Shown here: positions 21,967 to 43,276 of the stretch, one piece after another
Numbering within the stretch: the first letter of the stretch is position 1
How the letters are laid out: every line of letters starts with the position of its first letter
NCBI GenBank assembly: GCA_913776245.1
Contig: CAJYLO010000002.1
Coordinates: 1 to 64,000 of the forward strand
Direction: 5' to 3'
DNA from: an uncultured Chryseobacterium sp.
GTDB lineage: Bacteria; Bacteroidota; Bacteroidia; Flavobacteriales; Weeksellaceae
DNA: 64,000 nucleotides
Translations under genes and position numbers: made by a program
The notes under the pieces: model-generated
Seen by the model: the letters and a program-made list of their open reading frames with translations, nothing else
Told to the model about the DNA's origin: nothing
Database searches by the model: none

Positions 21967-22040
21967 TTTATAAAAATAATGAAAGTTAGGTAATGTTGAT
22001 TATTATTGGGAAATTTTCCTTTTAGAAACAAAAACCAATA

Positions 22041-22122
22041 GCCCCGATTGCAATGGAAATCCTTTTTTGCGAGAGGCTATGCCGAGCAAAAAAGATTGTA
22101 ATGGAAAGCGGGATTAAGCTCC
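22041..22122 (-). repeat. dispersed hairpin repeat family A, copy 2 (divergent)
   Basis: gccccgattgcaatggaaatccttttttgc...gcaaaaaagattgtaatggaaagcgggattaagctcc. Confidence 0.65.
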
Positions 22123-39776: not shown

Positions 39777-40313
39777 CTAATACTTTATCTTTATTTCTTT
39801 ATTATGCAGTTTATCCAATTCATAAATGATTCTGTCCGAAAGATTAAAATCAATTCCTTTTTCGATACAAACTTGTTTTAATTTTTGTAAATAATCAATA
39901 TAAAAATCAATCTGTTTTTCAACAGAAGAAAAATATTTTGGCATCTCCACACCATAAATAAATCGATAAACCCGTTGGTCAATAATCTGATAAATATTTG
40001 AATTTTTAAATCTCAAAATTGTGGAGGCCATTGCTAGCTGTATTCCTTTTGTTTTTAAAAGTTGGCTTAATATCGTAATTGTATGTTCTACATCCAGAAT
40101 TAAATTTTCTTTAGTTATTTTATTTAAAAGTGAAAGCGTTTTATCATCAAGAAGAGAATATCTATTCACTTTCCAAAGAACAATTTCATTAATAATGTCT
40201 TGGTTGAAATCAGTATCCAAATCATCCAATTTTGATGTGAGTTCAAGTTGATATTTATAATTTACATTTTGTAAATCATCGTTTGTAATTTCAATATCAA
40301 AAATTGTTTTCAT
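39777..40313 (-). CDS. helical, DNA-glycosylase (HhH-GPD)-like protein
   Basis: LLKTKGIQLAMASTILRFKNSNIYQIIDQRVYRFIYG resembles HhH-GPD-type helical core; no catalytic residue confirmed. Confidence 0.4.
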   Translation of the reverse strand: MKTIFDIEITNDDLQNVNYKYQLELTSKLDDLDTDFNQDIINEIVLWKVNRYSLLDDKTLSLLNKITKENLILDVEHTITILSQLLKTKGIQLAMASTILRFKNSNIYQIIDQRVYRFIYGVEMPKYFSSVEKQIDFYIDYLQKLKQVCIEKGIDFNLSDRIIYELDKLHNKEIKIKY

Positions 40314-40595
40314 CTAAATATTTACTTCGTTTTCTGAAATCCCATTAGAATCCATTATTGTAAAAATAGTTTCCTCTGTATTTTTGCAAAGCTTTACAAG
40401 TTTCTGAACATTTGCATCTTCTATACTTTCAAAATGCTTTAGTTTAAAATCATATTCATCACCGATATCAAAAGCATCCTCCAAATGTTTTAATTCTCCT
40501 GACATTGCAAGATTTACAATTTGTGTAAAAATAATTCCTCTTGCTTCGATAAGATTTTGAATAACTTCTAATATTTTTTCTCTATGATTTTGCAT
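40314..40595 (-). CDS. small hypothetical protein directly upstream of the glycosylase-like gene
   Basis: 93 aa ORF whose stop abuts the next start codon. Confidence 0.5.
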   Translation of the reverse strand: MQNHREKILEVIQNLIEARGIIFTQIVNLAMSGELKHLEDAFDIGDEYDFKLKHFESIEDANVQKLVKLCKNTEETIFTIMDSNGISENEVNI

Positions 40596-40776: not shown

Positions 40777-40930
40777 CCTACTTTACTCCTCCTTTTGCTT
40801 ACTTCACTCTTCTGACAGTCTACTTCACTCTTCTGATTGTCTACTTTGCTCTTGTAACGGTCTACTTTGCTCTTGTAATTGTCTACTTTGCTCTTGTAAC
40901 GGTCTACTTTGCTCTTGTAACTGTCTACTT
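40777..40930. repeat. 21-bp tandem repeat array (~7 units)
   Basis: Unit tctactttgctcttgtaacgg; unit starts at 40777, 40798, 40819, 40840, 40861, 40882, 40903, 40924. Confidence 0.92.
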
Positions 40931-42158: not shown

Positions 42159-43061
42159 TTATTTTTTGGAGTCGATGAATTGGTATCCTTTGTTTTCCAA
42201 ATCGTATTTAAGGATGGCCATTCTTGCAAAAACGCCGTTCTGCATTTGTTTGAAGATTCTCGACCTTTCGCATTCAACTAATTCTGAATCAATTTCCACG
42301 CCTCTGTTGATTGGTGCCGGATGCATAATGATGGATGTTGGTTTCATTTTCGCTTCTCTTTCTTTTGTTAACCCGAATTTCTTCAGATAATCTTCGGATT
42401 TGAAATTGAAGTTTCGCTCGTGGCGCTCGTGCTGGATCCTCAGCAGAATCAAAACATCCACTTCCTTCACCAGATCATCGAACTGCATATAAGTTCCGTT
42501 CACCAGCATTCCTTCATCGAACCAGAATTCCGGACCGGAGAAATAAACTCTTGCGCCTAATCTTCTGAATAATCCTGCATCCGAATTCGCAACGCGGCTG
42601 TGTTTCACATCGCCTACGATTCCGATTTTAAGTCCTTCGATTTTCCCAAATTCCTGAATGATGGTCAACGCGTCCAAAATAGCCTGAGTCGGGTGATGTC
42701 CTGTTCCGTCACCGGCATTCACAATACTGAGTTTGGTATCTTTCAGCGCATCATAATATCTGTTTTCCGAATGTCTGATAACAGCTACTTCCACCCCAAT
42801 CGCTTCCAGAGTTTTGATGGTATCCAGCATTGTTTCGCCTTTGGCAATCGAGCTTTTCTCGGCTTCAAAGTCGATGACTTGAAGTCCCAGTTTTTTTTCT
42901 GCTACTTCAAAGCTGGTTTTGGTTCTGGTACTGTTCTCAAAAAATAAGTTGGCCGCAAAAACATCACCTTCAATTTTGCTAATCTTACCCTCCGAAAAAG
43001 CCTGAGCTTCTTTTAAAATATTTCCTATACTGTCTGTAGAAATGCGTGAAAGCTTAATCAT
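42159..43061 (-). CDS. pyrB: aspartate carbamoyltransferase catalytic subunit
   Basis: [45 protein letters not shown]. Confidence 0.97.
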
Positions 43062-43074
43062 AATTAAAATTTTT

Positions 43075-43106
43075 AAATAAAAAAACGAAGCCTAAAAGAC
43101 TTCGTT
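43075..43106 (-). terminator. candidate attenuator terminator in the pyrB leader
   Basis: Minus strand AACGAAGTC-TTTTA-GGCTTCGTT followed by TTTTTTATTT, ~22 nt before the pyrB ATG. Confidence 0.75.
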
Positions 43107-43179
43107 AAATATAAAAAATATTGTTGTTGTCGGCAAACCTGCCAATTATTTTTGTCGCTAAATTCTGTACCAAATTCAT
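43105..43179 (-). CDS. candidate pyrB leader peptide (MNLVQNLATKIIGRFADNNNIFYI)
   Basis: 24-codon ORF just after a TATCTTTG -7 motif; its TAA overlaps the base of the terminator hairpin; absent from the ORF track (too short). Confidence 0.55.
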   Translation of the reverse strand: MNLVQNLATKIIGRFADNNNIFYI

Positions 43180-43185
43180 TGGTTG

Positions 43186-43193
43186 CAAAGATA
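43186..43193 (-). promoter_or_regulatory. -7 element TATCTTTG of pyrB
   Basis: TAnnTTTG on the minus strand, 6 nt before the leader ATG. Confidence 0.55.
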
Positions 43194-43276
43194 CCAATAT
43201 TTTTAATATTATGAAATCTCTCCCAAAATATTTTATGTTAAATCAATGAACGTCTACTCTTGTCAATTTTTTTATT

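Follow-up and report, generated by a model that had tools for sequence, protein, structure and literature searches.

In the genome of an uncultured Chryseobacterium sp., the gene of aspartate carbamoyltransferase (pyrB), the first of the genes dedicated to pyrimidine synthesis, is preceded by a short stretch of DNA whose organization raises the question of how expression of this gene is controlled. The region is part of a window of 64,000 nucleotides, the whole stretch of DNA analysed (assembly GCA_913776245.1, contig CAJYLO010000002.1, positions 1 to 64,000), for which a first-pass annotation had proposed a leader peptide and attenuator akin to pyrL of the enterobacterial pyrBI operon. The -7 motif, the reading frame, the hairpin, the T tract and the start codon of pyrB, which it had placed in this order on the minus strand, were all found, as were the overlap of the leader stop codon with the base of the hairpin and the U-rich stretch in front of it. 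A further hairpin inside the leader ORF (43145–43130) had been overlooked. The features of the region are, by position in the window:

43186 to 43193, minus strand: -7 promoter element TATCTTTG (TAnnTTTG), assigned from the sequence and conserved in the leaders
43181 or 43180, minus strand: predicted transcription start, placed by the spacing from the F. johnsoniae motif, with a predicted 5' UTR of 1–2 nt
43105 to 43179, minus strand: leader ORF of 24 codons, MNLVQNLATKIIGRFADNNNIFYI, with its ATG at 43179, its stop codon TAA at 43107–43105 and a conserved frame
43130 to 43145, minus strand: first hairpin TTGGCA-GGTT-TGCCGA, a candidate pause hairpin within the leader ORF
43107 to 43119, minus strand: U-rich tract AUUUUUUAUAUUU, a candidate UTP-sensitive pause region
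43077 to 43106, minus strand: intrinsic terminator AACGAAGTCT-TTT-AGGCTTCGTT, with its stem at 43106–43084 followed by a T tract
42159 to 43061, minus strand: pyrB, aspartate carbamoyltransferase of a Bacillus-like type, with its ATG at 43061

In this arrangement, the stop codon TAA overlaps the base of the terminator and the ATG of pyrB is located 22 nt past the terminator stem. RNA folding of the window leader suggests that both hairpins coexist (z-score -2.87), and a competing antiterminator fold, which was looked for in the same way, was not seen. The leader has no match to Rfam covariance models at gathering score; two Flavo-1 RNA motifs (RF01705) are found above this score at other positions of the window (22036–22119 and 161–267, both on the plus strand). 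Since transcription in F. johnsoniae starts 4–5 nt after the G of the TAnnTTTG motif (PMC6847099), the 5' UTR is predicted to encompass 1–2 nt, which would make the transcript effectively leaderless. Few mRNAs of the Bacteroidota are leaderless, with a share of 5.5% in F. psychrophilum (PMC9723704), and this rarity counts against the interpretation that we favour.

We propose that the region acts as a pyrBI-type, UTP-sensitive and translation-dependent attenuator, a reading that we consider probable from its sequence features (with a probability of roughly 0.78), whereas translation-dependent attenuation of some kind appears very likely. Its operation would resemble the UTP logic described for pyrBI of E. 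coli (PMC10135430). We infer that transcription starts 1–2 nt ahead of the leader ATG and that a ribosome loads immediately on the leaderless end. The ribosomes of these Bacteroidota are not known to use Shine-Dalgarno sequences. At ample UTP, RNA polymerase would cross the U tract fast and the terminator would fold before the ribosome gets there, thus ending transcription before pyrB. At scarce UTP, the polymerase would pause in the U tract, perhaps with help from the hairpin, which would then lie about 11 nt behind the 3' end of the RNA, and the leader ribosome could catch up. Once at or near the stop codon, this ribosome would cover the 5' arm of the terminator and permit readthrough into pyrB.

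The organization found in the window extends to its relatives. Among pyrB loci collected from GTDB species and other genomes of the Weeksellaceae, the leader set comprises 93 loci, corresponding to 67 distinct DNA sequences in 27 clusters (with less than 80% identity) from about 25 genera, with the named loci closest to that of the window belonging to Epilithonimonas and Chryseobacterium. All 93 have one architecture in common, in which a first hairpin inside the ORF is followed, after about 11 nt, by a U-rich tract and a terminator whose base is usually located at the stop codon of the ORF. Nearly all leaders contain the TAnnTTTG motif, an ATG that usually follows 6 nt further on, a short ORF (usually of 19–26 codons), a U-rich end and a terminator with a stem that is mostly of the CGAAG...CTTCG type. 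The alignment of upstream regions that had been recommended as a check on the first-pass annotation speaks in its favour, as the open frame, the U-rich end, the terminator and the near-leaderless start are kept across about 25 genera. A point against our interpretation comes from one genus (g31, loci L141, L142 and L143), which contains a third, divergent PyrB type and a pyrB without clear leader. At L143, a terminator-like hairpin is found about 60 nt before pyrB within a longer reading frame.

In 67 of 67 distinct sequences and in all 27 clusters, the frame defined by the leader ATG stays free of stop codons at least up to a point 16 nt short of the terminator; this holds for 1 of 67 sequences in the +1 and 26 of 67 in the +2 frame (1 and 8 of the 27 clusters). 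The stop codon, for which all three types occur, overlaps the stem base in most sequences, and the ORF enters or crosses the terminator in seven clusters. The pN/pS of the ORF amounts to 1.24 in Epilithonimonas, to 18 in Chryseobacterium, where synonymous changes are few, and to 0.64 in six sequences of the FPLDD group. Judged by these ratios, the residues of the leader peptide are under no purifying selection within Epilithonimonas and Chryseobacterium, and the feature that appears to be maintained is translation up to the terminator rather than the residues. As for the U-rich codons named in the first-pass annotation, the lack of peptide conservation within genera makes a U-rich RNA tract the better reading.

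In the leaders, U accounts for 68–81% of the bases in the stretch from -12 to -5 ahead of the terminator, and C and G are almost absent. The first hairpin varies in sequence between leaders and is fixed in position: the best leader hairpin ends 16–28 nt before the terminator in 24 of 27 clusters, compared to 8.6 expected from shuffles, and the median distance from its 3' end to the first UUU is 11 nt. Against dinucleotide shuffles, its summed z is 6.3, with individual significance in only 6 of the 27 clusters, and this small number also counts against our proposal. As its sequence changes, the hairpin was not aligned across genera by MAFFT, and it was assessed by shuffle and position tests in place of covariation counts, since counts of base-pairs would be circular for hairpins that were picked as the best in each leader.

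To what extent such an arrangement would be encountered by chance is illustrated in a background sample of 321,367 bases from this genome, where both strands together contain 424 TAnnTTTG sites, 40 of which have a short ORF nearby and a single one, the pyrB leader itself, has a terminator at the end of this ORF. The 12 nt upstream of the pyrB terminator are the most U-rich among 45 strong terminators in these 321 kb, and the leaders as a group differ from the same terminators in their upstream U (p = 2.6e-10, calculated from clusters that are related and hence not an independent sample). Inspection of four genomes revealed no such leader upstream of pyrEF or pyrG, which is another point against our reading.

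The closest known parallel is provided by pyrL of E. coli K-12, where the hairpin GCGTCT-GAAAAA-AGACGC is followed, after 10 nt, by UUUUUCUUCCCGUU, the terminator and pyrB, and which is thus alike in the order of its elements and the spacing between hairpin and U tract. The match of this pause-type hairpin and the conservation of the leader both support the pyrL-like character assigned in the first-pass annotation, and the function (UTP response and masking by the ribosome) is, as stated there, putative. Since no local alignment with E <= 100 relates the leader peptide to enterobacterial pyrL, the Weeksellaceae leader would work like pyrBI, whereas common descent is not supported. Several features set it apart from its E. 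coli counterpart: the start is near-leaderless, the leader has about half the length, the U tract lies directly next to the terminator, the ORF usually stops at the base of the terminator rather than past it, and a Bacillus-like pyrB follows. The conserved hairpin may reflect another real difference, as in vitro work suggests that the pause in E. coli pyrL needs no hairpin (PMC9291695). In the same order of bacteria, the attenuators reported for F. psychrophilum (PMC9723704) resemble the proposed one in their short translated leader and the regulation of elongation, but they precede amino-acid operons, and we found no mention of pyrB in the main text of that study. In the literature, covered mostly without subscription papers, attenuation of pyrB was not found to be reported for Bacteroidota, and the attenuator proposed here is apparently new and convergent with pyrBI.

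In a tree of PyrB sequences, the Weeksellaceae group with Bacillus, apart from other sampled Bacteroidota, with a support of 1.0. The pyr operons of Bacillus are under the control of PyrR, which acts via terminator-based attenuation, and thus share with the Weeksellaceae leader the use of a terminator in the control of pyr genes. Unlike in these operons, the window leader shows no antiterminator fold and PyrR is not found above the curated cut-off in any of 60 sampled Weeksellaceae, with positive controls being detected, nor at 1e-10 in the genome of the window itself. A PyrR-dependent attenuator was therefore rejected. PyrR is located directly upstream of pyrB in nine genomes from other families of the Flavobacteriales, and a PyrR-like gene is found upstream of pyrB at most loci of a phylum-wide sample, while a strong terminator within 300 nt of pyrB was seen at none of the 40 loci inspected outside the group with the leader. 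We find it reasonably probable that the Weeksellaceae have swapped a PyrR-controlled pyrB for a Bacillus-like one and have independently evolved a UTP attenuator of the pyrBI kind with leaderless leader peptide and hairpin-aided pause, where the direction of transfer can only be inferred since Firmicutes were sampled from near hits.

At nearly all loci, pyrB is followed by carA. In the window, a strong terminator (CACGCTTTCGGGCGTG with T8; 42149–42134, minus strand) is located between both genes, and control by the attenuator may thus be limited to pyrB alone. Between carA and carB, two directly neighbouring ORFs (39777–40313 and 40314–40595, both on the minus strand) have no Pfam match, and about six 21-nt tandem repeats are found downstream of carA (40800–40930). 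In seven genomes of the Weeksellaceae (G045, G046, G055, G058, G065, G066 and G068), of which G045 (83%) and G068 (56%) are incomplete, no aspartate carbamoyltransferase was detected above the TIGR00670 cut-off, and some genomes lacking the enzyme may need external pyrimidines.

A translation-dependent attenuator of the same layout could also respond to a different signal than UTP, for instance the speed of transcription or overall translation capacity. A ribosome that gets to the stop codon is all that the conserved frame and terminator require, and UTP itself is unreadable from sequence, yet the U tract shows specific conservation and stands out among the terminators of this genome, and the product of pyrB serves the pathway to UTP, which renders such a signal unlikely. 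It is very improbable that the ORF encodes a functional microprotein, with the terminator merely ending its transcript and pyrB being expressed from another promoter. The wide retention of the ORF and the pN/pS of the FPLDD group would agree with this role, but the residues change freely within two genera, the length of the ORF varies, it crosses the terminator in some genera, and the space between terminator and pyrB is scant for a second promoter.

In an attenuator of the trp or his kind, scarcity of an amino acid would stall the ribosome at the corresponding codons, with formation of an antiterminator. Leader peptide and terminator are both present, the peptide often contains Ile, Phe, Asn and Tyr towards its end, and leaders of this kind are those reported in F. 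psychrophilum (PMC9723704). However, the fold contains no antiterminator pairing, no run of residues is common to all genera (with NNN being found in Epilithonimonas but not in Chryseobacterium), and stalling would not obviously free pyrB. As both hairpins coexist instead of forming alternative terminator and antiterminator folds, this type of attenuator was rejected, and we regard it as extremely improbable. We assign next to no probability to the control of pyrB by PyrR or by a divergent regulator of the AsnC/Lrp type, where the leader would be a bystander, despite the role of PyrR in Bacillus, from which the nearest PyrB relatives come, and the AsnC/Lrp-type gene that is located divergently beside pyrB in the window: an AsnC neighbour is found at only 6 of 35 leader loci, all of which contain the leader, and the 60 Weeksellaceae contain no PyrR above cut-off.

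The favoured mechanism, UTP-sensitive attenuation of the pyrBI type, relies on a ribosome that closely follows RNA polymerase, and it counts against it that we found no demonstration of transcription-translation coupling in Bacteroidota in the literature. If our reading is correct, a textbook RNA switch would have evolved convergently in another phylum, where the states before and after are visible in the absence of PyrR and the presence of the attenuator, and transcription and translation would be coupled in these Bacteroidota. Since the switch needs a ribosome close behind RNA polymerase, the pyrB leader would constitute a natural reporter for this coupling, and it would also offer a reporter for leaderless initiation in Bacteroidota.
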